Source: Rhodobacter sp. SY28-1 (GTDB taxonomy: Bacteria > Pseudomonadota > Alphaproteobacteria > Rhodobacterales > Rhodobacteraceae). From it: DNA of 64,000 nt. The notes under the pieces are model-generated. The model saw only the letters and a list, made by a program, of their open reading frames with translations. It was not told the origin of the DNA and made no database searches. Where the stretch lies: assembly GCF_005222785.1 (NCBI RefSeq), contig NZ_STGH01000001.1, forward strand, positions 496,001 to 560,000, given 5' to 3'. The translations under genes were made by a program, and so were the position numbers. Positions 14,312-59,451 of the stretch are shown one piece after another. Position 1 is the first letter of the stretch. Every line of letters begins with the position of its first letter.

Positions 14312-14340
14312 TCCGGGACTTCCCTTGATTTGCTTTTAGG

Positions 14341-14370
14341 TGCTTACGCAACGGGTGCCCGATCGGATCA
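14341..14370 (-). promoter_or_regulatory. Sigma-E (RpoE/ChrR) type promoter for the ufaD operon
   Basis: On the minus strand TGATCC (14370-14365), an 18-nt spacer and TAAGCA (14346-14341) match the R. sphaeroides sigma-E consensus (TGATC, then TAAG/TAG). Transcription would start near 14335, about 25 nt ahead of the ATG at 14311. The -35 and spacer length are identical to the rpoE promoter on the other strand. Confidence 0.78.
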
Positions 14371-14509
14371 CCCTTCGATGCACCTACCGGGCCGCAGCGA
14401 AGAAAGTTTCGTGTCAGGTTCCCTATACGCACCTAATGCGAAAAATCTGTCAAACGAAGTTGACAGGAAGTCTTGACTTGTGGCCCGCACGCTCCAGTTC
14501 GCTGAAAAA

Positions 14510-14539
14510 TGATCCGACTGCGTGTTACCGGCGTAGAAG
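14510..14539 (+). promoter_or_regulatory. Sigma-E type autoregulatory promoter of rpoE-chrR
   Basis: TGATCC (14510-14515), an 18-nt spacer and TAGAAG (14534-14539) form a sigma-E promoter reading into rpoE, implying autoregulation as in R. sphaeroides. The expected transcription start near 14546 falls past the first two ATG codons (14544 and 14547), favouring translation from 14571. Confidence 0.75.
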
Positions 14540-14570
14540 CAACATGATGCTAGACGCCACGAGAGCCGCT

Positions 14571-15191
14571 ATGACGGAGCAGGCCTTGTCGCCGCTGCCT
14601 TCGGGCGTGGGTGCAGGTGCCGGTTCGCGCCAGAAAAGGGTTGGGTCGTTGGCGACGACGGACGATACAGACTGGGCCGCCCTTCTGGTGAAGGTGCGCG
14701 ACCATCAGGACCGGGCGGCCTTCGCGGCCTTGTTCCGGCACTTTGCCCCAAGGGTGAAGGCCTTCCTGATGAAGTCGGGCGCAGGGGCCGCGCTGGCCGA
14801 GGAATGCGCTCAGGACGTCATGGCGACGCTCTGGCAGAAGGCGCATCTCTTCGACCCCACGCGGGCTTCCGTGGCGACCTGGGTCTATACCATCGCCCGC
14901 AACCGGCGGATCGACGCGCTGCGCAAGGCGCGCCGGGCAGAGCCGGAGGAACTGGATTGGGGACCCGAGCCCGAGCCTGACCAGGCCGAGGTGATGGAGG
15001 CCCAGCAAGAGACGGAACGGTTGGGACGCGCCCTTGCGGCGTTGCCTGCACCGCAAAGGACACTGATCGAACGCGCCTTCTACGGCGATCTCTCGCACTC
15101 AGAGATCGCAGCCGAGACGGGGCTTCCCCTGGGGACGATCAAATCGCGGATACGGCTGGCGCTGGAGAAACTGCGCCATCAGATGGGTTAA
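14571..15191 (+). CDS. rpoE: ECF sigma factor RpoE (group-IV, ChrR-controlled)
   Basis: The 206-residue sigma factor directs the singlet-oxygen response in purple bacteria. Region 2 runs through FAALFRHFAPRVKAFLMKSG to WVYTIARNRRIDALRK; region 4 contains LSHSEIAAETGLPLGTIKSR, a helix-turn-helix. The reading frame is open from 14340, but ATG 14571 (MTEQALSPLPS) is preferred because the sigma-E promoter ends at 14539. ATG 14547 would leave essentially no leader. chrR follows after 30 bp. The pair is the textbook RpoE-ChrR arrangement, in which ChrR holds RpoE inactive until singlet oxygen triggers its degradation. Confidence 0.9.
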   Translation: MTEQALSPLPSGVGAGAGSRQKRVGSLATTDDTDWAALLVKVRDHQDRAAFAALFRHFAPRVKAFLMKSGAGAALAEECAQDVMATLWQKAHLFDPTRASVATWVYTIARNRRIDALRKARRAEPEELDWGPEPEPDQAEVMEAQQETERLGRALAALPAPQRTLIERAFYGDLSHSEIAAETGLPLGTIKSRIRLALEKLRHQMG

Positions 15192-15221
15192 GGGCCAAGC
15201 GGCTAAGGGACTGAGACGGAC

Positions 15222-15869
15222 ATGACGACGATACGCCACCATCTTTCGGATCAGCTGCTGATGGCCTATGCGGCCGGTCAGTTGCCCGAGGCTTTCAACC
15301 TGGTCGTGGCGACGCATGTGTCGCTGTGCGATGAATGCAGGGCGCGGGCAGGCAGCTTCGACGCAGTCGGGGGCACGCTTCTGGAAGAGGCCGATGAAAT
15401 TGCGATGGGCGAGGATGCCCTGGCAAAGGCGCTGGAGCGGATCGAGGGCCTTGCCCAGGCCACCCGGTCTGAACCGCTGAAACCGGCGGGCATCTTCCCG
15501 GCGCCGCTGGCGGATTACATTGGCGGCGACCTGTCGGCGGTGCGCTGGCGCAAGGTCGGCGGCGGGGTGAAGCAGGCCATCCTGCCCACGGCCAAGGATG
15601 CCTCCGTCCGGCTTCTGTACATCCCGGCGGGGACGGCGGTGCCGGACCATGGCCACCGGGGGATGGAGCTGACGCTGGTCCTGCAGGGTGCCTTCGCCGA
15701 CGAGAACGACCGTTTCGGTCGCGGCGACATCGAAATTGCCGACGAAGAGATGGAGCATACCCCGGTCGCCTTGGCCGGGGAGGATTGCATCTGTCTGGCG
15801 GCGACGGATGCGCCCTTGCGGTTCCGGGGGCTGATCCCGCGGCTGGCGCAGCCATTGCTGCGGATCTGA
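15222..15869 (+). CDS. chrR: Zinc-dependent anti-sigma factor ChrR
   Basis: The 215-residue protein has the two ChrR domains. The N-terminal anti-sigma domain carries the ZAS zinc ligands His6/His7 and His32-x3-Cys36-x2-Cys39. The C-terminal cupin holds the metal-site residues His143, His145, Glu149 and His179, each offset by +2 from the R. sphaeroides ligands. ZAS binds RpoE; the cupin is required for the singlet-oxygen signal. It is co-transcribed with rpoE. All residues known to matter are present, so the switch should be functional. Confidence 0.93.
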   Translation: MTTIRHHLSDQLLMAYAAGQLPEAFNLVVATHVSLCDECRARAGSFDAVGGTLLEEADEIAMGEDALAKALERIEGLAQATRSEPLKPAGIFPAPLADYIGGDLSAVRWRKVGGGVKQAILPTAKDASVRLLYIPAGTAVPDHGHRGMELTLVLQGAFADENDRFGRGDIEIADEEMEHTPVALAGEDCICLAATDAPLRFRGLIPRLAQPLLRI

Positions 15870-19626: not shown

Positions 19627-20208
19627 ATGAAACCACTTGCCATCATCGTCGTCGAACCGGACCGCGAGCGCGCCCTGCGCATCGTGGACGGCCTGCGCGC
19701 CTCGGGCGATCACGAAATAACGGTGATTTCAGAAGCGACCGGCCTGGCACGGCGCATTGCCGAGCACAACCCCGACATCGTGCTGATCGACGTGGCCGAC
19801 CCGTCGCGCGATGTGCTGGAGGACCTGGCGCTGGTGTCCGGCCCGATGGAGCGGCCCGTCGCGATGTTCGTCGACCGGTCGGATGAGCAGATGACCCGGG
19901 CGGCGATCGAGGCCGGGGTGTCGGCCTATGTCGTGGATGGGCTGCAGCCGGACCGGATCAAGCCGATCCTCGACGCGGCGATTGCCCGGTTTCACATGTT
20001 CCACAAGATGCGGGCCGAGCTGGCGGCGACCAAGGCCGCGCTGGAGGAACGCAAGATCATCGACCGGGCCAAGGCGATCCTGATGAAGGCGCGGGGGATT
20101 GACGAAGAGGCGGCCTATGCGCTGCTGCGCAAGACGGCGATGGACCAGAACCGCCGGATGGCCGACATTGCGCAACAGCTGGTGATGGCGGCGGGGCTTT
20201 TGACATGA
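19627..20208 (+). CDS. nasT: ANTAR-domain antiterminator NasT
   Basis: The 193-residue protein has a receiver-like N-terminal domain with Asp55 (IVLIDVAD) but no T-K-P motif (the region reads VDGLQ), so phosphorylation is not expected to be the main signal. A coiled-coil linker leads to the ANTAR RNA-binding domain (EERKIIDRAKAILMKARGID through ADIAQQLVMAAGLL). NasT binds paired hexaloop hairpins and prevents terminator folding in nitrate assimilation leaders; NasS holds it inactive without nitrate or nitrite. nasS overlaps by 4 bp. The 231 bp upstream (19396-19626) hold a GCCCG-AAAAA-CGGGC hairpin and no gene. Confidence 0.9.
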   Translation: MKPLAIIVVEPDRERALRIVDGLRASGDHEITVISEATGLARRIAEHNPDIVLIDVADPSRDVLEDLALVSGPMERPVAMFVDRSDEQMTRAAIEAGVSAYVVDGLQPDRIKPILDAAIARFHMFHKMRAELAATKAALEERKIIDRAKAILMKARGIDEEAAYALLRKTAMDQNRRMADIAQQLVMAAGLLT

Positions 20209-21380
20209 GCTTGACGCCGCTTCGCCTGGGCTATGTGCCGCTGACCGATGCCGCCCCGCTGATCGTGGCGGCCGAACTGGGCTTTGCGGCCGAGGAAGGT
20301 CTGTCGCTGGACCTGATCCGCCTACAAAGCTGGGCGCAAAGCCGCGACATGCTAGGCTTGGGCGCGATCGACGCGGCGCATATGTTGGTGCCGTTGCCGA
20401 TTGCGCAGGCTTTGAGGTTGGGCCCGGACTACCCGCGGTTCGAGCTTGTGATGGTGCTGTCGGTCGGCGGTCAGGCCATCGCAGTCAGCGCGGCGCTGGC
20501 CGAGGCGATGCGGGCCGGGGGGCACGGGTTCGGCTTTGGCGACCCGGTTGCGGCGCGGCAGGCGCTTGCGGCGGTGGTGCCCGGCATGTTGCGCGTCGGT
20601 GTTCCCTTCCCGTTTTCGACGCAGGCCGAGTTGGTGCGGCGCTGGCTGGCGGGCAGCGATCTGGACCGGCGCTTTTCAATACATACGGTGCCGCCGCCCT
20701 TGATGGCCGATGCACTGGCGACAGGCGAGGTCGATGCCTTCTGCGTGGGTGAGCCGTGGGCGTCCTATGCCGTGGAACGAGGTGTGGGGGCGCTGGTGCT
20801 GGCGGGGCGGTCAATCTGGGCCTCGCCGCCGGAAAAGGGGCTGGTCCTGACCCGTGACTTTGCCGAAGGCCGACCCGAGGAGACCGGGCGGTTGATGCGC
20901 GCGGTCTGGCGGGCCTGCCGCTGGCTGGATGTGCCAGAGAATAGGACAACGGCGGCGGAAATCCTGTCGCGGGCGGAGTATCTGAACTTGCCACCGGAAC
21001 TGAGCGAGCGCGGCTTGATGGACCGCCTGCATGTCAGCGCGCAGGGCGAGGTGCGGCAATATCCCGGATTCATCCGGTTTCATGCGGGGGCGGCGAATTT
21101 CCCATGGCGCAGTCTGGCGGCGCTGTACGCGCGCCGGATTGCTGGGTTGCACGGGCTGGACGAGGCAACGGCGATGGAAGCGGCGATGGCCTGTTTCCGG
21201 ACCGATCTTTACCGCCAGCATCTGCGGTCGGCGGGGGCGGATTTGCCCGGAGCCTCGGCCAAGATCGAGGGGGCGATGGCGCATCCGACCGCCGTTGCCT
21301 CGGAAAAAGGGCAGATGATTCTGGGGTCGGATGCGTTCTTCGACGGCGAGACGTTCGAGCCGCCGTTTGTCGGGCGCTGA
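20205..21380 (+). CDS. nasS: Nitrate/nitrite sensor NasS (NrtA-like, cytoplasmic)
   Basis: The 391-residue protein has the NrtA/CmpA periplasmic-binding fold (LGYVPLTDAAPLIVAAELGF, VGEPWASYAVERGVG) but no signal peptide, so it stays in the cytoplasm. It is translationally coupled to nasT. In Paracoccus and Azotobacter NasS binds nitrate or nitrite and then frees NasT. Similarity in layout to NrtA at 21652 indicates a duplication in which one copy became a sensor. Confidence 0.88.
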   Translation: MSLTPLRLGYVPLTDAAPLIVAAELGFAAEEGLSLDLIRLQSWAQSRDMLGLGAIDAAHMLVPLPIAQALRLGPDYPRFELVMVLSVGGQAIAVSAALAEAMRAGGHGFGFGDPVAARQALAAVVPGMLRVGVPFPFSTQAELVRRWLAGSDLDRRFSIHTVPPPLMADALATGEVDAFCVGEPWASYAVERGVGALVLAGRSIWASPPEKGLVLTRDFAEGRPEETGRLMRAVWRACRWLDVPENRTTAAEILSRAEYLNLPPELSERGLMDRLHVSAQGEVRQYPGFIRFHAGAANFPWRSLAALYARRIAGLHGLDEATAMEAAMACFRTDLYRQHLRSAGADLPGASAKIEGAMAHPTAVASEKGQMILGSDAFFDGETFEPPFVGR

Positions 21381-21488
21381 AGTTTTGGGCGGCGGCGGTC
21401 CGAACTGCGGAAATCTGATGCTGCAACTGCGATACTGCATTGCAGCGCTTGACGGGGCGCGGTGCGGGACGGCACTCTGAACCCAAGC

Positions 21489-21534
21489 GAAGGGCAACGA
21501 GGTCCTTCCGTGCCGATCACCGCAAGGATGCGGT
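21489..21534 (+). promoter_or_regulatory. NasT (ANTAR) target: paired hexaloop hairpins P1 and P2
   Basis: P1 (21489-21508) is a 7-bp stem GAAGGGC/GUCCUUC (one G-U pair) closing hexaloop AACGAG. A 10-nt linker precedes P2 (21519-21534), a 5-bp stem ACCGC/GCGGU closing hexaloop AAGGAU. Both loops have A at position 1 and G at position 4, the known ANTAR recognition pattern. The left arm of P2 (CACCGCAA, 21518-21525) is fully complementary to TTGCGGTG at 21581-21588, so P2 and the terminator exclude one another. Confidence 0.85.
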
Positions 21535-21553
21535 TCCCCGCTATGGCAACGAC

Positions 21554-21595
21554 GCCACCGATCCCGACACCTGTCGGCGATTGCGGTGGCTTTTT
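21554..21595 (+). terminator. Leader terminator controlled by NasT, upstream of nrtA
   Basis: An outer stem GCCACCG (21554-21560) with CGGTGGC (21584-21590) encloses an inner CCGAC/GTCGG hairpin and is followed by five T residues (21591-21595). It lies 56 bp before nrtA, so termination here would stop the whole nrtABD-nirBD-nasA operon unless NasT stabilises P1-P2. Confidence 0.82.
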
Positions 21596-21651
21596 GCCGT
21601 TCAACCCAGCCGTCTCCCCCTTTTGCCGGGGCTTGCCAGAGGACCTGATCG

Positions 21652-22941
21652 ATGACCCTGACCCTTCCCTCACGCCGCACCTTCCTGAAATCCGCCGCCA
21701 ATCTGGCCGCCACTGTCGCCGCCGCAAAACTCGCCTTGCCGGGCGGCGCCTGGGCGGCAACGGCCACGCCCGAAGTGACCGGCTGCAAGCTGGGCTACAT
21801 CGCCCTGACCGACAGCGCGCCTCTGATCATCGCGTCAGAGAAGGGCCTGTTCGCCAAGCACGGCATGCCGGATGTGCTGGTGGAAAAGCAGGCCAGCTGG
21901 GGGGCCACGCGCGACAACATGGCGCTGGGCGCGGCCAATGGCGGGATCGACGGCGGGCATATCCTGCGGCCCAAGGTGCATCTTTATGCGACCGGCAGCG
22001 TGATGCAGAACAACCAGCCCTTGCCGATGTACACGCTGTTGAACCTGAACGAGGATTGTCAGGGTCTGTCGGTCGCGCAGGCCCATGCCGAGACCGGGGT
22101 GGGGCTGGACAGCTCGCCCCTGAAAGAGGTGTTTGCGGCCAAGAAAGCTGCGGGTGCCGAAGTGCCGGTGGCGATGACCTTCCCGGGCGGCACGCATGAT
22201 CTGTGGATGCGCTACTGGCTGGCGGCGGGCGGGATCGACCCGACCAAGGATGTCGACCTGATCGTGGTGCCTCCGCCGCAGATGGTGGCCAACATGAAGG
22301 TCGGCAACATGGAGGCCTTCTGTGTCGGCGAGCCGTGGAACGAGCAGCTGGTCAACCAGGGCATCGGGTTCACCGCAGCGACGACGGGTGAGCTGTGGAA
22401 GCTGCATCCGGAAAAGGTGCTGGGGATGCGGGCGGACTGGGTGGATGCGAACCCCAATGCGACCGTCGCGCTGATGATGGCGGTGATGGAGGCGCAGATC
22501 TGGTGCGATGACGCGGCAAACAAGGACGAGATGGCCGAAATCGTCGGGCGGCGTCAGTGGTACAACGTGCCGGTCGCCGACATCATCGGGCGGATCAAGG
22601 GCGACATCAACTATGGCAACGGGCGCATGGTGTCGGACCCGTCGCTGGCGATGAAGTTCTGGCGGGGCGGGGCGACCTCGTTCCCGTGGAAGTCGCTGGA
22701 CAGCTGGTTCATCACCGAGAACAAGCGCTGGGGGTATCTGCCGGGCGATCTGGACACCAAGGCTTTGGTCGACGCGACGAACCGCAGCGATCTGTGGCTG
22801 CTGGCGGCGGCTGGGTTGGGGATCGACACGGCGGGGTTTGGGGACAGCCGGGGGGTAGAGACCTTCTTCGACGGCAAGAGTTTCGATCCGGCGAACCCCG
22901 ATGCCTACCTCGACAGCCTGTCGATCAAGGCAATGGCATAA
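21652..22941 (+). CDS. nrtA: Nitrate ABC transporter substrate-binding protein (NrtA)
   Basis: The 429-residue CmpA/NrtA family protein carries a Tat signal peptide: SRRTFLKSA at residues 7-15, a hydrophobic stretch and GGAWAATA. The mature part opens CKLGYIALTDSAPLIIASEK and holds the family features WGATRDNMALG, DGGHILRP and VGEPWNEQLVNQG. It delivers nitrate to NrtB in the periplasm. It is the first gene after the NasT-controlled leader. Confidence 0.9.
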   Translation: MTLTLPSRRTFLKSAANLAATVAAAKLALPGGAWAATATPEVTGCKLGYIALTDSAPLIIASEKGLFAKHGMPDVLVEKQASWGATRDNMALGAANGGIDGGHILRPKVHLYATGSVMQNNQPLPMYTLLNLNEDCQGLSVAQAHAETGVGLDSSPLKEVFAAKKAAGAEVPVAMTFPGGTHDLWMRYWLAAGGIDPTKDVDLIVVPPPQMVANMKVGNMEAFCVGEPWNEQLVNQGIGFTAATTGELWKLHPEKVLGMRADWVDANPNATVALMMAVMEAQIWCDDAANKDEMAEIVGRRQWYNVPVADIIGRIKGDINYGNGRMVSDPSLAMKFWRGGATSFPWKSLDSWFITENKRWGYLPGDLDTKALVDATNRSDLWLLAAAGLGIDTAGFGDSRGVETFFDGKSFDPANPDAYLDSLSIKAMA

Positions 22942-22953
22942 GGGGGCGGGGCG

Positions 22954-23838
22954 ATGTCTGTGACTGCGCTGAAACCCCGCGAGGTTCCTACTGCGCCATC
23001 GGCGGGACAGGTCCTGCCCCTGCCCGTGGTCGCCCGGCCAAAGCTGCGGCTGGCCGGTCTGGGCCGCCTCCTTGCGGAACGGGTCGCCCCGCCGGTGGTG
23101 GTGATGACCCTGCTTCTGGTGATCTGGCAGGTCGCCTTTTCAGGTGGAGGTTCGGGTCTCCCTGCCCCCACCGATGTATGGGAGCAGAGCCGCGAGCTTA
23201 TCCTCGACCCGTTCTTCGTCTACGGGTCCCAGGACATAGGCCTGGGCTGGCGGGTGCTGACCTCGCTGGAACGGGTGGCGTACGGGTTTGGGCTGGCGGC
23301 GGTGGTCGGCGTGCTGGTCGGTGCGGTGCTGGGTCAGTCGGCGCTGATGATGCGGGGGTTCGACCCGATCTTCCAGGTCCTGCGCACGGTGCCGCCCCTG
23401 GCCTGGTTGCCAATCAGCCTGGCGGCGTTCATGGACAGCCGCCCCTCGGCGATCTTCGTGATCTTCATCACCGCGATCTGGCCGATCATCATCAACACCG
23501 CCGCCGGGGTGCGCGCCATTCCGCAGGATTACCGGAACGTGGCCGCTGTCCTCCGGCTGAACCAGATCGAGTTCTTCTGGAAGATCATGGTCCCCTCGGC
23601 CGCGCCTTACATCTTTTCGGGGCTGCGCATCGGGGTCGGCCTCTCCTGGCTTGCCATCGTCGCGGCAGAAATGCTGACCGGCGGCGTCGGCATCGGGTTC
23701 TTCATCTGGGACGCGTGGAACTCCAGCCGCCTGACCGACATCATCGTCGCACTGGTCTACATCGGGGTGACCGGGTTCATCCTGGACCGGCTGGTCGGCT
23801 GGATCGGGCGCGTCGTGTCGCGCGGAACGGCGGAGTAG
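22954..23838 (+). CDS. nrtB: Nitrate ABC transporter permease (NrtB)
   Basis: The 294-residue inner-membrane protein has about six transmembrane segments, a cytoplasmic N-terminal tail of roughly 45 residues, and the BPD_transp_1 core. The EAA-type coupling loop lies around AVLRLNQIEFFWKIMVPSAA and contacts the ATPase. It sits 12 bp after nrtA and 5 bp before nrtD. It forms the nitrate channel with NrtA and NrtD. Confidence 0.9.
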   Translation: MSVTALKPREVPTAPSAGQVLPLPVVARPKLRLAGLGRLLAERVAPPVVVMTLLLVIWQVAFSGGGSGLPAPTDVWEQSRELILDPFFVYGSQDIGLGWRVLTSLERVAYGFGLAAVVGVLVGAVLGQSALMMRGFDPIFQVLRTVPPLAWLPISLAAFMDSRPSAIFVIFITAIWPIIINTAAGVRAIPQDYRNVAAVLRLNQIEFFWKIMVPSAAPYIFSGLRIGVGLSWLAIVAAEMLTGGVGIGFFIWDAWNSSRLTDIIVALVYIGVTGFILDRLVGWIGRVVSRGTAE

Positions 23839-23843
23839 GGGCC

Positions 23844-24644
23844 ATGGATCAAAGCTATCTCAAGATCGACCGCGTCTTCAAAAGCTTCTCGAAGGGCGCG
23901 AAGACGACCGAGGTTCTGGCCGATATCCGGCTGACCATCGACAAGGGTGAGTTCGTGTCGATCATCGGCCATTCCGGCTGCGGCAAGTCCACGCTTTTGA
24001 ACCTGGTCGCCGGGCTGACCGACGTCACCACGGGCGCGATCAAGCTGGAAGGGCGGGAAGTCAATGCTCCTGGCCCCGACCGCGCGGTAGTGTTCCAGAA
24101 CCATAGTCTGCTGCCCTGGCTGTCGGTCTATGACAACGTCAAGCTGGCGGTGACCAAGGTCTTTGGCGCGACGAAGACCAAGGCGGAACGGCACGACTGG
24201 ATCATGCAGAACCTGGACCTGGTGCAGATGACCCATGCCGCCGACAAGCGGCCCGGCGAAATCTCGGGCGGGATGCGGCAGCGGGTGGGCATCGCCCGCG
24301 CGCTGGCGATGGAACCGAAGATCCTCTTGTTGGACGAACCCTTCGGCGCACTGGATGCCTTGACCCGGGCGCATCTGCAGGACGCGGTGATGGATATCCA
24401 TGCTCGGCTGAAGAACACGATGATCATGATCACCCATGACGTTGACGAAGCCGTGCTTCTGGCCGACCGCATCGTGATGATGACCAACGGACCCGCCGCA
24501 TCCATCGGAGAGGTGCTCCCCGTCGCCATCCCCCGCCCGCGCGACCGGATCGCCTTGGCCAGCCACCCCGACTACGTCCGCGCCCGCGAGGCGGTGCTGC
24601 GGTTCCTGTACGAACGTCACCGTTTCGTCGAAGCGGCGGAGTAA
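23844..24644 (+). CDS. nrtD: Nitrate ABC transporter ATP-binding protein (NrtD)
   Basis: Starting at ATG 23844 (MDQSYLKIDRVFKSF), the protein has 266 residues; a far longer upstream frame inside nrtAB is spurious. It has Walker A GHSGCGKST, Q-loop VVFQNHSLLPW, the ABC signature ISGGMRQRVGIARAL, Walker B ILLLDEPFGALD and the switch His in MIMITHDVDEAVLLADR. No second ATPase or NrtC-type fusion is present, so NrtD probably works as a homodimer. Confidence 0.9.
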   Translation: MDQSYLKIDRVFKSFSKGAKTTEVLADIRLTIDKGEFVSIIGHSGCGKSTLLNLVAGLTDVTTGAIKLEGREVNAPGPDRAVVFQNHSLLPWLSVYDNVKLAVTKVFGATKTKAERHDWIMQNLDLVQMTHAADKRPGEISGGMRQRVGIARALAMEPKILLLDEPFGALDALTRAHLQDAVMDIHARLKNTMIMITHDVDEAVLLADRIVMMTNGPAASIGEVLPVAIPRPRDRIALASHPDYVRAREAVLRFLYERHRFVEAAE

Positions 24645-24649
24645 GTGAT

Positions 24650-27076
24650 ATGAAACAGAGACTTGTGGTGATCGGCGCGGGCATGGCCTCGGGCAGGATG
24701 CTGGAGCAGATCTTTGACGCGGGCGGCGATTTTGATGTCACCCTGTTCAACGCCGAACCGCGCGGCAACTACAACCGGCTGATGCTGTCGCCGGTGTTGT
24801 CGGGCGAAAAGACCTATGAGCAGATCGTCACCCATGACGCGGCATGGTACGAAAGCCACGGCGTCGACTGCCGCTTTGGCGAGTCGGTGGTCAAGATCGA
24901 CCGGGAAAACCGGGTGGTCTATTCGGCTGAAGGTGGAGTCCCCTACGACGCGCTGGTCATCGCCACGGGCTCGGCCCCGTTCATCATCCCGGTGCCGGGG
25001 AAAGACCTGAAAGGCGTCTGCACCTACCGCGACCTGGAAGACACCAACGCGATGATCGCGGCCAGCCGTCCGGGTGCCAAGGCCGTGGTGATCGGCGGCG
25101 GCCTTCTGGGGCTGGAAGCCGCGGCGGGCATGGCGGCGCGCGGGGCAGAGGTCACAGTGATCCACCTGATGGGCCATCTGATGGAACGTCAACTGGACCC
25201 GGCGGCTGGGTATCTCTTGCAGAAGGACCTGGAGGCGCGGGGCATCCGTGTCCATTGCAAGGGCGCGACCAAGGCGATCCTTGGCAAGGATCACGTCGAG
25301 GCGGTGCTGCTGGAGGACGGGACGGTCTACGACGCCGACCTCGTCTGCATGGCCGTCGGCATCCGGCCCGAAGTGCGCCTTGCCAATGACGCGCATCTGG
25401 AGGTCGGGCGTGGCATCACGGTGGACGAGCAGCTGCGCACGTCTGACCCGGCGATCTTCGCGCTGGGCGAATGTGTCGAACATGACAAGCAGCTCTTCGG
25501 CCTCGTCGCCCCCCTCTACGATCAGGCCAAGGTCCTGGCCGCGACCCTTTTGGGGCAAGAGACTGCGTTCAAGCCGGTGCAGACCGCGACCAAGCTGAAG
25601 GTCACCGGCGTCGACCTGTTCAGCGCGGGCGACTTTGCCGAAGGCCCGGGGCGCGAGGACATCGTGTTCCGCGATCCGGGGCGCGGGGTCTACAAGCGGC
25701 TGATCCTGGAAGGCGAGCATCTGATCGGCGCTGTCATGTACGGCGACACCGCCGACGGGTCGTGGTTCTTTGACCTGATCAAGCAGAAGAAGGATGTGTC
25801 TGACATCCGCGACACGCTGATCTTCGGCCCTGCCTTTGCCGGGGGGGCATCCGCAAACCCTTTGGCAGCCGTTGCAGCCTTGCCGCCTGAGGCGGAAATC
25901 TGTGGCTGCAACGGCGTCTGCAAGGGCAAGATCGTCAATGCCATCGAGGGCGGGGCTGTGACGCTGGATCTGGTGCGGGCGCAGACCAAGGCCAGTGCCT
26001 CGTGCGGCACCTGCACCGGGCTGGTGGAGCAGGTCATGGCGCTGACTCTGGGCGACGGGTTCACTGCCAATGCCAATCCGCCGATGTGCAAATGCACCGA
26101 CCACACGCATGAGGACGTGCGGCGGCTGATCAAGTCGCAGGGGTTGAAGTCGATCCCCGCGGTGATGCAGGAGCTGGGCTGGAAGACGGTGGGCGGCTGC
26201 GCCTCGTGCCGTCCCGCGCTGAACTATTACCTGCTGTCCGACTGGCCCTTGGAGTACCGCGACGACCGCCAGTCGCGGTTCGTCAACGAACGCAACCACG
26301 CCAACATCCAGAAGGACGGGACCTATTCGGTCGTACCCCGGATGTGGGGGGGTGTCACGACCGCCGCCGAACTGCGGGCGATTGCCGATGCGGCGGACCG
26401 CTATGCGGTGCCGATGATCAAGGTCACCGGGGGGCAGCGGATCGACCTGCTGGGCGTGCGGAAAGAGGACCTTCCGGCGATCTGGTCCGACTTCAACGCA
26501 GTGGGGATGGTGTCGGGTCATGCCTATGCCAAGGGTCTGCGGACAGTGAAGACCTGCGTGGGATCGGAGTTCTGCCGCTTTGGCACGCAGGATTCGACGG
26601 GGCTGGGCATCCAGCTGGAGAAGCTTCTGTGGGGCTCATGGACTCCGGCCAAGGTGAAGCTGGGGGTGTCGGGCTGTCCGAGGAACTGCGCCGAGGCGAC
26701 CTGCAAGGACATCGGGGTGGTCTGTGTGGACAGCGGCTATGAGATCAGCGTGGCGGGGGCGGCGGGCATGGACGTGAAGGAGACCGAGTTCCTGCGCAAG
26801 GCCTCGACCGAGGCCGAGGTGCTGGAAGTGGTGGCGGCGTTCACTCAACTGTACCGTGAGAACGCGCGCTACCTGCACCGGATCTACAAATGGGTGGCGA
26901 AGGTCGGGCTGGATTGGTGCCAGGAGCAGGTCGCTGACCCGGTGACGCGGCGCGCCTTGTACGACCGCTTCATACTCAGCCAGTCCGTCTACCAGACCGA
27001 CCCCTGGGCCGAACATGCCGCCACCCCGGCGGATTGGGCTCCGATTGCAGACCTGACCTTGAGGGCCGCCGAATGA
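24650..27076 (+). CDS. nirB: Assimilatory nitrite reductase large subunit (NirB/NasB)
   Basis: The 808-residue enzyme reduces nitrite to ammonium with NAD(P)H. Domains in order: FAD/NAD(P) pyridine nucleotide oxidoreductase (VVIGAGMASGRMLEQ; VVIGGGLLGLEAA), two BFD-like [2Fe-2S] segments (CGCNGVCKGKIV; CKCTDHTHEDV) and a C-terminal sirohaem-[4Fe-4S] reductase. Cluster cysteines lie near residues 637, 643, 677 and 681 (TCVGSEFCRFG and SGCPRNCAEATC). Length is typical. The stop overlaps the nirD start. Confidence 0.95.
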   Translation: MKQRLVVIGAGMASGRMLEQIFDAGGDFDVTLFNAEPRGNYNRLMLSPVLSGEKTYEQIVTHDAAWYESHGVDCRFGESVVKIDRENRVVYSAEGGVPYDALVIATGSAPFIIPVPGKDLKGVCTYRDLEDTNAMIAASRPGAKAVVIGGGLLGLEAAAGMAARGAEVTVIHLMGHLMERQLDPAAGYLLQKDLEARGIRVHCKGATKAILGKDHVEAVLLEDGTVYDADLVCMAVGIRPEVRLANDAHLEVGRGITVDEQLRTSDPAIFALGECVEHDKQLFGLVAPLYDQAKVLAATLLGQETAFKPVQTATKLKVTGVDLFSAGDFAEGPGREDIVFRDPGRGVYKRLILEGEHLIGAVMYGDTADGSWFFDLIKQKKDVSDIRDTLIFGPAFAGGASANPLAAVAALPPEAEICGCNGVCKGKIVNAIEGGAVTLDLVRAQTKASASCGTCTGLVEQVMALTLGDGFTANANPPMCKCTDHTHEDVRRLIKSQGLKSIPAVMQELGWKTVGGCASCRPALNYYLLSDWPLEYRDDRQSRFVNERNHANIQKDGTYSVVPRMWGGVTTAAELRAIADAADRYAVPMIKVTGGQRIDLLGVRKEDLPAIWSDFNAVGMVSGHAYAKGLRTVKTCVGSEFCRFGTQDSTGLGIQLEKLLWGSWTPAKVKLGVSGCPRNCAEATCKDIGVVCVDSGYEISVAGAAGMDVKETEFLRKASTEAEVLEVVAAFTQLYRENARYLHRIYKWVAKVGLDWCQEQVADPVTRRALYDRFILSQSVYQTDPWAEHAATPADWAPIADLTLRAAE

Positions 27077-27402
27077 GCCACTTCATCGACATCGCAGCCC
27101 TCGACGACATCCCCCGCCAAGGCGCGCGGGTGGTGAAAACCCAAGGTGGCTGTATCGCGGTCTTTCGCACCGCCGATGATCAGGTTTTTGCCATCGACGA
27201 CCGCTGCCCCCACAAAGGCGGCCCGCTGTCCGAGGGGATCGTGCATGGCACCTCCGTCACCTGCCCTTTGCATGCAGCGGTGTTTGATCTCACGACCGGG
27301 CAAGGCACGGACGACTGGCAGGTGAAAACCCATGCAGTGCGGGTGGAAGGCGGGCGGGTATTGCTGGACGCGGCTTTCCTTGCCCGGCGGTCGGCTGCAT
27401 GA
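27073..27402 (+). CDS. nirD: Nitrite reductase small subunit, Rieske type (NirD)
   Basis: The ATG at 27073 overlaps the nirB stop (ATGA) and gives 109 residues beginning MSHFIDIAALDDIPRQG. The Rieske [2Fe-2S] ligands are C-P-H and C-P-L-H in CPHKGGPLSEG and VTCPLHAAVFD. NirD partners NirB in electron transfer to the sirohaem site. A longer start at 27034 inside nirB is unlikely. The stop overlaps nasA by 4 bp. Confidence 0.92.
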   Translation: MSHFIDIAALDDIPRQGARVVKTQGGCIAVFRTADDQVFAIDDRCPHKGGPLSEGIVHGTSVTCPLHAAVFDLTTGQGTDDWQVKTHAVRVEGGRVLLDAAFLARRSAA

Positions 27403-29996
27403 CCGCTGCCGTCCGCACCACCTGTCCCTATTGCGGTGTCGGCTGCGGAGTGCTGGCCTCGCGGGATGCTGCGGGCCGGGTGCACATTGCGGGCGATCCG
27501 GACCATCCGGCGAACCGGGGGCGGCTGTGTGTGAAGGGTGCGGCGCTGGGGGAGACACTGGGGAATGATGGTCGTTTGCTTGCGCCTCGGGTCGGGGGGC
27601 GTGAGGTCAGTTGGGACCGCGCGCTAGACCTGATCGCCGCGCGGTTTTCGGAAACCATCGCGGCGCATGGGCCGGACTCCGTGGCGCTCTATGTATCGGG
27701 TCAGCTGCTGACCGAGGACTACTACGTCGCCAACAAACTGATGAAGGGCTTCATCGGCAGCGCGAATATCGACACCAATTCAAGGCTCTGCATGGCGTCC
27801 AGCGTGGCGGGGCATCGGCGGGCCTTTGGGTCGGACACGGTGCCGGGTCAGTATGAGGACCTGGAAGAGGCCGACCTTGTGGTGCTGGTCGGCAGCAACC
27901 TCGCCTGGTGCCATCCGGTCCTGCACCAGCGCCTTCTGGCGGCAAAGGCGGCGCGGGGGACGAAGATAGTCGTCATCGACCCGCGCCGGACCGCGACCTG
28001 CGAAGGGGCGGACCTGCATCTGGCGCTGGCCCCGGGGGCGGATGGGCATCTGTTCAACCTTCTTCTGTGCCACCTGTTCGACCATGGCCGCTTCAGCGCG
28101 GAGTTCCTGCCGCGCCTGACCGGGGCCGATGCCGCTGTCGCCGCTGCCCGGACCAGCCGAGCCGAAGACACCGGGCTATCCCCCGCCGATCTGGACCGTT
28201 TCCTGGAGCTCTGGGCCGGGACCCAGAAGGTCGTCACCGTCTATTCCCAGGGCATCAACCAGTCCGACACCGGCACCGACAAGGTCAACGCGATCCTCAA
28301 CTGCCATCTGGCGACCGGTCGGATCGGGCGGCCGGGGATGGGGCCGTTCTCGGTCACCGGCCAGCCCAACGCGATGGGCGGGCGCGAGGTTGGCGGTCTG
28401 GTCAACATGCTCGCCTGCCATCTGGAGCTGGAGAACCCCGGCCATCGCGCGGCTGTGCAGGGCTTCTGGGCCTCGCCTCGGATGGCCGACAGGCCGGGCC
28501 TCAAGGCGGTCGACATGTTCCGCGCGGTGGAAGAGGGGCGGATCAAGGCGCTGTGGATATTGCACACGAACCCTGCCGTCACCATGCCCGAAGCGGACCG
28601 AGTGGCCCGTGCCATCGCCGCCTGCGACTTCGTGGCGGCCAGCGACATCTGGCCCGACACCGATACGGCGCGGCTGGCGCATGTCCTGCTCCCGGCCACT
28701 GGCTGGGGCGAAAAAGACGGCACCGTCACCAATTCCGAACGGATGATAAGCCGCCAGCGCGCCTTCCTGCCAGCGCCGGGGCTGGCGCGGCCCGACTGGT
28801 GGCAACTGGCACAGGTCGCGCAGCGGATGGGGTTCCAGGGGTTCGACTGGGCGGGGCCAGGTGAGATTTTTGACGAGTATGCGCGGCTCTCTGCCGTTGC
28901 CGCCGAGCAGGGCAGCGATTTCGACATTTCTGGGCTTGCGGGGGCGGAGTATGACACGCTTCCGCCAGTGACCTGGCCGCACGGGCGCAGCACGCGGCGC
29001 CGGTTCTTCGGGGATGGCCGCTTTCACACCCCGGATGGAAGGGGCCGGATGATCCCAATCTCGGCCCGCCTGCCCGCCCACGCGACCGAGGCCCATCCCT
29101 TCCGCCTGAACACCGGCCGCATCCGCGACCAGTGGCACACGATGACCCGCACCGGCCTTGCCCCCCGGCTGTCGCAGCACCTTGCCGAACCCTATCTGGA
29201 ACTCCATCCCAAGGACGCCCAGCGCCTGGGCCTTGCCTCCGCAACCCTGGCCGAGGTGGAAAGCCCGCAGGGTCGCGCCATCCTGCGGGTTCTGGTGAGC
29301 GACCGTGTTGCCCCCGGCCATCCCTTCGCGCCGATGCATTGGACCGGGCAGACCGCGCCCACCGGCCGGATCGACGCGCTGGTGCCGGGGCTGTGCGATC
29401 CGGTCTCGGGCCAGCCCGCCAGCAAGTCCGCCGCCGTGGCAATTCGCCCCTTTCCCGCGCGCTGGTACGGTTTTGCCGTGGCGCGGGAGGATCTGACCCC
29501 GGACTGCGACTATTGGGCCAAGGGTCGGGTTGCGGGCGGCCTGCAGGTGGAACTCGCCGGGTCCAGCCTGCCCGAGGATTGGTCCGCCTGGGCCAGCGCC
29601 CTGTTCGGCGGCACCGCCCCCGCGATGGCACTGTCCGACCCTGCGCGCGGCGTCCACCGCTTTGCCTTCACCGAGGGCGGCCAGCTGACCGGGGCGCTGT
29701 TCGTCTCGCCCGACCCGGTGCGACTGTCCCGCGGCCACCTGGCCGATCTGCTGGGCCGTGGCGCGGCGGATGCTCTGGCGGGTAGGCCCGGAGCCGACCG
29801 TCCCGACCCCGGCCCGACCGTCTGCGCCTGCCTGAACGTCGGGTTGAACACCATCCTGGACGCAATCCACAACCGTGGCATCCTGAGCGTAGAGGCCCTC
29901 GGCACTGCTCTTGGCGCAGGGGCCAACTGCGGGTCCTGCCGCCCGGAGCTGGCGGCGCTGTTGCAGGGACAGGGGCGGAGAGAGGCGGCGGAGTAG
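27399..29996 (+). CDS. nasA: Assimilatory nitrate reductase catalytic subunit (NasA/NasC)
   Basis: The 865-residue molybdopterin enzyme reduces nitrate to nitrite in the cytoplasm. The N-terminal [4Fe-4S] site is TCPYCGVGCGVLA with a later Cys in GRLCVKG. The bis-MGD core includes SRLCMASSV and the C-terminal dinucleotide-binding domain around FRLNTGRIRDQWHTMTRTG. A BFD-type [2Fe-2S] domain ends the protein (VCACLNVGLNTIL and CGSCRPEL), as in NasA-type enzymes that receive electrons from a separate diaphorase. It is the last gene of the operon, followed by a palindromic repeat. Confidence 0.94.
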   Translation: MTAAVRTTCPYCGVGCGVLASRDAAGRVHIAGDPDHPANRGRLCVKGAALGETLGNDGRLLAPRVGGREVSWDRALDLIAARFSETIAAHGPDSVALYVSGQLLTEDYYVANKLMKGFIGSANIDTNSRLCMASSVAGHRRAFGSDTVPGQYEDLEEADLVVLVGSNLAWCHPVLHQRLLAAKAARGTKIVVIDPRRTATCEGADLHLALAPGADGHLFNLLLCHLFDHGRFSAEFLPRLTGADAAVAAARTSRAEDTGLSPADLDRFLELWAGTQKVVTVYSQGINQSDTGTDKVNAILNCHLATGRIGRPGMGPFSVTGQPNAMGGREVGGLVNMLACHLELENPGHRAAVQGFWASPRMADRPGLKAVDMFRAVEEGRIKALWILHTNPAVTMPEADRVARAIAACDFVAASDIWPDTDTARLAHVLLPATGWGEKDGTVTNSERMISRQRAFLPAPGLARPDWWQLAQVAQRMGFQGFDWAGPGEIFDEYARLSAVAAEQGSDFDISGLAGAEYDTLPPVTWPHGRSTRRRFFGDGRFHTPDGRGRMIPISARLPAHATEAHPFRLNTGRIRDQWHTMTRTGLAPRLSQHLAEPYLELHPKDAQRLGLASATLAEVESPQGRAILRVLVSDRVAPGHPFAPMHWTGQTAPTGRIDALVPGLCDPVSGQPASKSAAVAIRPFPARWYGFAVAREDLTPDCDYWAKGRVAGGLQVELAGSSLPEDWSAWASALFGGTAPAMALSDPARGVHRFAFTEGGQLTGALFVSPDPVRLSRGHLADLLGRGAADALAGRPGADRPDPGPTVCACLNVGLNTILDAIHNRGILSVEALGTALGAGANCGSCRPELAALLQGQGRREAAE

Positions 29997-59373: not shown

Positions 59374-59451
59374 TTCCCCTGGTCGCGTCGGGGTTATGGC
59401 GCGGCATCCTCCCTGTTGGACCTGGCCGGGCTTCTTGCCCGGCCTTTTTTT
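59374..59451 (+). ncRNA. sRNA-like block copy B with intrinsic terminator
   Basis: The second copy (59374-59427 homologous block) runs into an 8-bp stem GGCCGGGC-TTCTT-GCCCGGCC (59424-59444) and seven T, an excellent terminator. Because the copy A terminator lies 120 bp upstream, copy B needs its own promoter to be transcribed; TTATTG-N17-TACTTT around 59318-59346 is a weak candidate. Conservation of the block, and not just of the hairpin, suggests a functional RNA. Confidence 0.55.

Follow-up and report, generated by a model that had tools for sequence, protein, structure and literature searches.

A predicted NasT antiterminator leader with three serial hexaloop hairpins, the last overlapping the terminator, upstream of nrtA in Rhodobacter sp. 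SY28-1

How many hexaloops does the leader between nasS and nrtA offer to the ANTAR protein encoded next door, and which of its hairpins competes with the terminator? The window, by which we mean the whole 64-kb stretch of the 4.28-Mb genome that was analysed, carries on its plus strand, from position 19627, nasT, nasS, a 271-base leader, nrtA, nrtB, nrtD, nirB, nirD, and a nasA-like gene. In the accessible text of the published work, an ANTAR target is a dual hairpin with A1 and G4 in each hexaloop, linkers of 5-12 nt, and a second hairpin laid over the terminator (PMC3369931); the Enterococcus faecalis eut leaders, Klebsiella nasF, and Pseudomonas amiE are described as such RNAs (PMC3369931, PMC8934654). 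The preliminary description of this DNA read the leader as a target of this kind upstream of nrtABD-nirBD-nasA, with twin hexaloops of which the second would exclude the terminator. That the leader is a NasT target is supported by the gene families, by the A1 and G4 residues kept in relatives, and by the presence in the genome of one ANTAR protein and one strong match to a leader model. The number of loops and the identity of the switch turned out differently.

The Leader and Its Switch

The genes of the locus are as follows.

19627..20208, plus strand: nasT, receiver-like domain and C-terminal ANTAR RNA-binding domain (Pfam ANTAR, 6.5e-21)
20205..21380, plus strand: nasS, nitrate-sensor-like (Pfam NMT1_2, 1e-60)
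21652..22941, plus strand: nrtA, nitrate ABC transporter substrate-binding protein (NMT1_2, 5.4e-100; CmpA/NrtA family in annotated relatives)
22954..23838, plus strand: nrtB, permease (TIGR01183, 1.2e-91, above cut-off)
23844..24644, plus strand: nrtD, ATP-binding protein (TIGR01184, 1.1e-102, above cut-off)
24650..27076, plus strand: nirB, assimilatory nitrite reductase large subunit (TIGR02374, 3.2e-256, above cut-off)
27073..27402, plus strand: nirD, nitrite reductase small subunit (TIGR02378, 5.6e-26, above cut-off)
27399..29996, plus strand: nasA-like assimilatory nitrate reductase with a C-terminal BFD Fe-S domain (Pfam Molybdopterin, 2.3e-68; Fer2_BFD)

As had been stated, nasT and nasS are the two genes directly upstream of the leader, the one recognised by its ANTAR domain (6.5e-21) and the other by NMT1_2. 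They overlap by 4 bases, and the order nasT-nasS-leader-nrtA recurs in both annotated relatives that were fetched, a third relative carrying no annotation. The Response_reg match of NasT (1e-5) falls below the Pfam cut-off. The nasA-like protein matches NCBIfam Fdh-alpha (best) and NasC, both below their cut-offs, and it owes its name to the gene context.

Rfam returned no match to the leader at gathering score, and at E up to 10 the leader region drew only a chance-level match at 21692-21757 on the other strand. The sole Rfam gathering match in the window lies away from the leader and is SorX (singlet oxygen resistance RNA X) at 59376-59450 on the plus strand (74.8 bits; gathering 46.6). The same window encodes, at 14340-15869 on the plus strand, a sigma-70-family factor followed by a ChrR cupin-like domain protein, a gene pair that we take to resemble the RpoE-ChrR singlet-oxygen system.

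Within the leader, the following features were located.

21449..21478, plus strand: possible leader promoter, with a -35-like TTGACG (21449-21454) and a very weak -10-like CACTCT (21473-21478), by eye
21489..21508, plus strand: P1 hairpin GAAGGGC-AACGAG-GUCCUUC, 7 bp, A1 at 21496 and G4 at 21499
21519..21534, plus strand: P2 (middle) hairpin ACCGC-AAGGAU-GCGGU, 5 bp, A1 at 21524 and G4 at 21527
21544..21557, plus strand: P3 hairpin UGGC-AACGAC-GCCA, 4 bp, A1 at 21548 and G4 at 21551
21554..21595, plus strand: intrinsic terminator GCCACCG...CGGUGGC-UUUUU, -22.6 kcal/mol

The two hairpins of the preliminary description, P1 and P2, are present in the sequence with their A1/G4 hexaloops and 10-nt spacing, but "twin" undercounts them, since a third A1/G4 hexaloop hairpin, P3, stands 9 nt past P2 and 35 nt from P1. 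In all three, a stem of at least 3 bp closes a 6-nt loop with a C-G pair, A1, and G4, and both linkers (10 and 9 nt) lie within 5-12 nt. A search of the genome for ANTAR proteins gave a single match, NasT, encoded close by. Because there are three loops and not two, we regard the leader as a variant of the ANTAR dual-hexaloop RNA and not as a plain member of that class.

Short hexaloop hairpins arise readily in such DNA. With stems of at least 4 bp and gaps of 5-12 nt on both strands, the window contains four hexaloop pairs, three on the plus strand (P1-P2 and P2-P3 among them) and one on the other, where 60 dinucleotide shuffles of the window average 1.27; this is near chance, and we rejected two hexaloops alone as significant evidence. 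One hexaloop triple was seen vs 0.033 expected per window. What counts as evidence is this triple, with its place between nasS and nrtA and its continuation into a terminator; a pair alone would not.

P3 is the hairpin that overlaps the terminator. The four bases of its 3' arm, GCCA (21554-21557), also open the 5' arm of the terminator, GCCACCG (21554-21560), which pairs with CGGUGGC at 21584-21590 ahead of the UUUUU, so that the last hairpin and the terminator exclude each other. P2 shares no terminator bases, and the two coexist in the predicted minimum-energy structure of 21484-21598; the claim that P2 and the terminator are mutually exclusive thus falls. The predicted energies are -4.4 kcal/mol for P3 and -22.6 kcal/mol for the terminator. 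P3 has a predicted probability of 0.98 in the RNA 21484-21575 and also folds with the terminator 3' half omitted (21484-21562), and in 21484-21598 it drops to 0.0 with the terminator at 0.9999. Since the terminator is predicted to outcompete P3 in the complete RNA, an outside agent would have to hold P3, as ANTAR proteins do.

In the minimum-energy fold of the full 271-nt intergenic region, the terminator is present and P1, P2, and P3 are all absent. The TTGAC box suggests a transcription start near 21485, and, if so, that fold is irrelevant. Of 111 leaders, 41 have TTGAC in the 90 nt that precede the P1 loop, and 41 of the 42 such matches sit 43-49 nt upstream (47 nt in the window); transcription probably starts just upstream of P1. 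The possible leader promoter was not listed by a sigma-70 promoter scan of the window, and the promoter and terminator scan caught the terminator stem only in part.

The switch had been placed in an 8-bp complementarity between CACCGCAA (21518-21525), in the 5' arm of P2, and UUGCGGUG (21581-21588), in the 3' arm of the terminator. The complementarity exists, and P2 as the switch does not follow from it. Only 3 of the 23 aligned leaders, the window being among them, allow this pairing perfectly, and 65.2% of cells are paired vs 65.0% in shuffles, with 0 pairs changed on both sides; its predicted probability is 0.0 at four decimals. A competition of the P2 5' arm with the terminator 3' arm was therefore rejected as the switch. 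It would also point the wrong way, because P2 folding would free the terminator arm.

Conservation of the Hairpins in Relatives

The searches for relatives covered 61 genomes for NasS (17 with a match), 394 genomes of the family for NasT (160 matching at 1e-20), and 385 genomes of the class for NasT (61 matching at 1e-15, their loci scanned separately); NasT alignments to named genome contigs contributed the best 80 of 570. Loci accompanied 30 of the 160 NasT carriers, of which 29 were used (L038 was truncated), and 60 of the 130 others were fetched. From these overlapping sources, 181 segments downstream of nasT/nasS were cut. A scan for A..G.. hexaloops that continue, at their 3' half, into a terminator called P3 plus terminator in 142 of the 181 segments; 126 distinct P3 leaders stood above threshold, and the other segments lacked a call above it (38), were duplicates (15), or were too short (2). 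A separate scan of 29 class-search loci gave few leaders within 1500 bases of nasT, and from outside the family we report single cases. One of these (L014/L224, from G048, in another family of the class) shows A1/G4 hexaloops AAGGAA, AACGAG, and AACGAA and one more hairpin between the second and third of them, perhaps four hairpins in series.

P1 and P3 were first noticed in a search that required A1/G4, and tests that leave the loop free are fairer to them. Hexaloops of any sequence that run into the terminator, in the place of P3, carry A1/G4 in 106 of 123 cases. In the place of P1, hexaloops of any sequence on at least 5 bp carry A1/G4 in 73 of 77, a test that covers the 77 of 126 leaders with such a hairpin.

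For the window's own type, we aligned 23 leaders (alignment A2), the window and 22 relatives selected for the presence of P2 out of 23 tried, L080 having failed. In rows so chosen, each of the three loops has an invariant A1, G4, and C-G closing pair (23/23), and the P2 stem CCGC/GCGG is likewise invariant (23/23), which, because it never varies, allows no covariation test for P2. The P1 helix has 6 of 7 pairs changed on both sides in relatives; by eye, its stem has a bulge or internal loop in L006, L073, L074, L076, and L078. The outer U-A pair of P3 is absent in 11 of 23 rows. Taken as one structure, the three hairpins show 47 cells changed on both sides vs 23.0 in shuffles and 85.7% of cells paired vs 78.5% (0 of 500 shuffles as high in either measure), counts that kinship among these related rows can raise without structure; counted by pairs, 7 are changed on both sides vs 6.3 in shuffles, with 201 of 500 as high. 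The spacing is held as well: loops 1 and 2 are 20-24 nt apart and loops 2 and 3 are 17-22 nt apart across the 23 leaders, the P1-P2 gaps of relatives being 8-16 nt (partly beyond the 5-12 nt rule) and the P2-P3 gaps 8-12 nt. The terminator was recovered by RNAalifold; 88.2% of its cells are paired in the 23 leaders, barely above the 86.4% in shuffles. One leader from Rhodobacter capsulatus SP108 (L085:4510-4658) keeps three hexaloops and has a terminator 3' arm and U-tract that look decayed by eye, which makes it a useful natural variant.

A tree of 81 NasT rows places 19 leaders with P2 plus P3, the window included, in one 20-row group (support 88/86, below the tree tool's starred level), with two changes needed for the leader-type label; 26 of the 81 rows carry no middle type, many because a duplicate under another handle was retained. 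P2 and P3 are present in 19 of 19 determinable rows of this group, the contig of the 20th ending before the leader. A2 contains every one of the 19 (L063 through its copy L003), and each retains the P1 loop; P1 is no part of the tree pattern, which asks for P2 and P3. Among the members of the group are Pseudotabrizicola, Frigidibacter, Gemmobacter, several Paracoccus, and Rhodobacter capsulatus and viridis. The window NasT pairs on the tree with Paracoccus sanguinis (99/90) and by tree path is nearest to Frigidibacter albus, a Rhodobacter MAG, and Pseudotabrizicola. In a neighbouring 7-row group, the last hairpin has a G1 and G4 hexaloop in L079, L093, L114, and L135, and this loop is absent from L086, L090, and L112.

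A covariance model (R1) built from the 23 leaders of A2 gave one strong match in the window genome (1.5e-29; the next at 0.385), a result that, as for every A2 genome, arises by construction. In the genus, 8 of 32 genomes match at 0.01 (5 of them in the model), among them G017 with a weak match (0.0088) and no NasS match. In the family, 10 of 394 genomes match at 1e-6 (7 in the model), all 10 among the 160 NasT carriers; a match at this level need not be an exact triple, as G036, with the middle loop GAGGAT, illustrates. The nasTS genes are patchy in the genus and have differing leaders, with the window type in G000, G001, G014, G022, and G028 and other middle loops in the same-genus G003, G006, G008, G019, and G031, a pattern hinting at cluster exchange.

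Across the family, P1 and P3 are mostly 28-40 nt apart (about 30 nt) in 111 distinct leaders, a set that required P1 with A1/G4 at 18-50 nt and leaves out shorter-gap leaders by construction. A middle hairpin can be drawn in 110 of the 111 vs 99.5 of 111 shuffled linkers, and we rejected its presence as evidence; the loop letters alone count. The linkers fold only slightly better than shuffles (mean -7.6 vs -5.8 kcal/mol), and no more than 21 of the 111 rank with the best 2 of 30. Forty-four of the 110 middle loops are counted as 7-nt loops; for 27 of these, a loop drawn with 5 nt was enlarged by opening its closing pair. G4 occurs in 41 of these 44, vs a mean of 7.2 and a maximum of 11 in 40 dinucleotide shuffles of the linkers; when letters are shuffled within each 7-nt loop, 9.2 have G4, and 41 was never reached in 5000. 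Exact A1/G4 middle hexaloops number 18 of 110 (mean 2.0, maximum 6 in 40 dinucleotide linker shuffles), made up of 11 of 15 leaders with the CGC/GCG stem and 7 of 95 others; in 44 of the 95 leaders without that stem, the middle loop is neither 7-nt nor an exact hexaloop. Two further leaders have short linkers: L148 (G410, segment position about 361) has two hexaloops with a 9-nt P1-P3 linker and no middle hairpin, and L225 has a hexaloop pair with a 5-nt linker.

Proposed Mechanism and Competing Readings

We propose that the leader is a three-hexaloop ANTAR antiterminator in which NasT is predicted to capture the loops serially, hold P3, and thereby block the terminator, a reading to which we give a probability of about 80%. 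That it is a NasT-controlled antiterminator leader of the known kind is well supported; NasT binding, release by nitrate, and the direction of control are what established ANTAR and NasS-NasT biology would lead one to expect here. Without nitrate, NasS would hold NasT; without NasT, P3 would melt as the far stronger terminator forms, and transcription would end before nrtA. Nitrate or nitrite would cause NasS to free NasT, which would grip the A1/G4 loops of P1, P2, and P3 as each emerges and so keep P3 closed. With P3 held closed, the terminator 5' arm would be unavailable, and nrtABD-nirBD-nasA would be transcribed. The conservation and spacing of P2 suggest that it may act as a third binding site or a stepping stone. 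A stricter version is one that we advance tentatively: the middle loop would be a required stepping stone of a three-site relay and would make workable the family-wide P1-P3 distance of about 30 nt, which far exceeds the limit of the two-loop EutV system.

The competing readings differ in which loops they assign to NasT. A classical dual element of P2 and P3 could do everything, leaving P1 as an accessory or remnant hairpin. These two hairpins do obey the canonical rule, P3 overlaps the terminator, and their linker (9 nt in the window, 8-12 in relatives) stays within the 5-12 nt of the eut leaders as given in the available text (PMC3369931), which the P1-P2 gaps of 8-16 nt in part do not. P1, however, is the helix with covariation, hairpins scored in its place with the loop left free carry A1/G4 in 73 of 77 cases, and across 23 leaders its loop and that of P2 stay 20-24 nt apart; we therefore consider this reading rather unlikely. 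The sites could instead be P1 and P3, the middle hairpin serving only as a structural spacer to bring them closer together. The strictness of the P1 and P3 loops family-wide while the middle loop varies in size, the gap of mostly 28-40 nt between them, and the 9-nt P1-P3 linker of the leader that has no middle hairpin (L148) all speak for such a spacer. A pure spacer would have no need of G4, yet G4 is present in 41 of 44 seven-nt middle loops (expectation 7.2), and in the window's group the middle hairpin bears a perfect A1/G4 hexaloop closed by a C-G pair; we judge the spacer unlikely.

Two more readings fare much worse against the same data. Were P1 and P2 the pair, CACCGCAA/UUGCGGUG would be the means by which the P2 5' arm competes with the terminator; the window does contain the 8-bp complementarity, but it is perfect in only 3 of 23 leaders, shows no change on both sides, and has a predicted probability of 0.0, and an unfolded P2 that sequesters the terminator 3' arm would favour readthrough without NasT, which makes this arrangement very improbable. 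It is barely credible that the hairpins are chance and that the leader holds only a constitutive terminator or another attenuator: hexaloop pairs are common by chance here and shuffled linkers also give short hairpins, but the triple, its position, and the conservation of its loops argue against chance.

Comparison with Known ANTAR Systems

With an ANTAR domain and RNA-contact residues in NasT, an NMT1_2 protein as NasS, and the two genes adjacent, the locus has the makeup of a NasS-NasT system. Comparison with the structure database gave EutV (6wsh/6ww6, 4.1e-20), Rv1626, NasR, and AmiR as the best solved relatives of NasT. EutV and Rv1626 are the names given to these entries in the literature. 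Tyr164, Arg142, and Lys149 of EutV are named for contact with G4 in the accessible text (PMC8934654); their counterparts in NasT, provided that the chain numbering is shifted by 2, are Y164, R142, and K149, all three invariant in the 13 NasT of alignment A1.

Like the ANTAR dual-hexaloop RNAs, the window leader has A1/G4 hexaloops, stems of at least 3 bp, short linkers, a last hairpin that overlaps an intrinsic terminator, and an ANTAR protein encoded next door. Unlike them, it has three hexaloops in series with gaps of 10 and 9 nt, and its P1-P3 distance of 35 nt stands against the limits on linker length in the two-loop eut leaders, where, as far as the available text goes, a 14-nt linker drastically cut induction and a 20-nt extension abolished antitermination (PMC3369931, PMC8934654). 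In the excerpted accounts, one ANTAR dimer holds one hexaloop at a time and is proposed to cycle from the first to the second, with other models left open (PMC8934654); NasR needed two hairpins for full affinity and bound one weakly (PMC7496416); and actinobacterial dual loops have linkers of 2-25 nt (PMC8164766). PMC6759348 belongs to the same body of prior work. Antitermination by NasT is already known; the new elements here are a third, conserved loop and the identification of P3 as the probable switch. In the available text of the literature that we searched, from which most subscription papers are missing, we found no three-hexaloop cis leader.

A second known system is the NasS-NasT control of Paracoccus denitrificans, where nasT-nasS likewise lie directly upstream of a hairpin leader that is followed by nitrate assimilation genes. 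According to the sections available, nitrate or nitrite dissociates NasS-NasT there and frees NasT, NasT binds the nasA leader, and the oligomer is broadly consistent with a hexamer (PMC3795266). The leader is described with two hairpins, HI and HII (PMC3795266, PMC5424462), lying 137 and 91 bp upstream of nasA in PD1222; mutation of HI cripples expression and growth on nitrate, and mutation of HII is mild (PMC5424462). Three hexaloop hairpins likewise occur in the HAMBI_2443 leader (L245), with the loops AACGGC, AAUGAU, and GACGAU; they start 160 (P1), 134 (P2 counterpart), and 111 nt upstream of the first downstream gene, and a terminator-like hairpin starts at 83 nt. Given the positions of 137 bp for HI and 134 nt for the P2 counterpart, HI is probably the counterpart of P2. 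The HAMBI_2443 leader differs from the window in its third hexaloop, CCGC-GACGAU-GCGG (L245:5373-5440), which has G1/G4 where the window has A1, in a terminator-like hairpin that by eye has no U-tract, and in its first downstream ORF, which encodes a different protein, by eye a membrane transporter, and not nrtA.

A conserved three-loop target with natural 6-nt, 7-nt, or absent middle loops means that loop-by-loop mutation could separate hopping from several-dimer models. Our results also suggest that two-loop searches can misplace such targets, as P1-P2 pass the two-loop rule without overlapping the terminator. An extra loop is also described for the EutX and Rli55 sRNAs, which, in the text available, combine a dual hexaloop with one additional single hexaloop with G4; unlike the window leader, which is a cis leader with a P3/terminator switch, these sRNAs are proposed to sequester EutV (PMC8934654). 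In the window leader, the extra hairpin, kept in close relatives, offers a test of how ANTAR proteins act on RNA.
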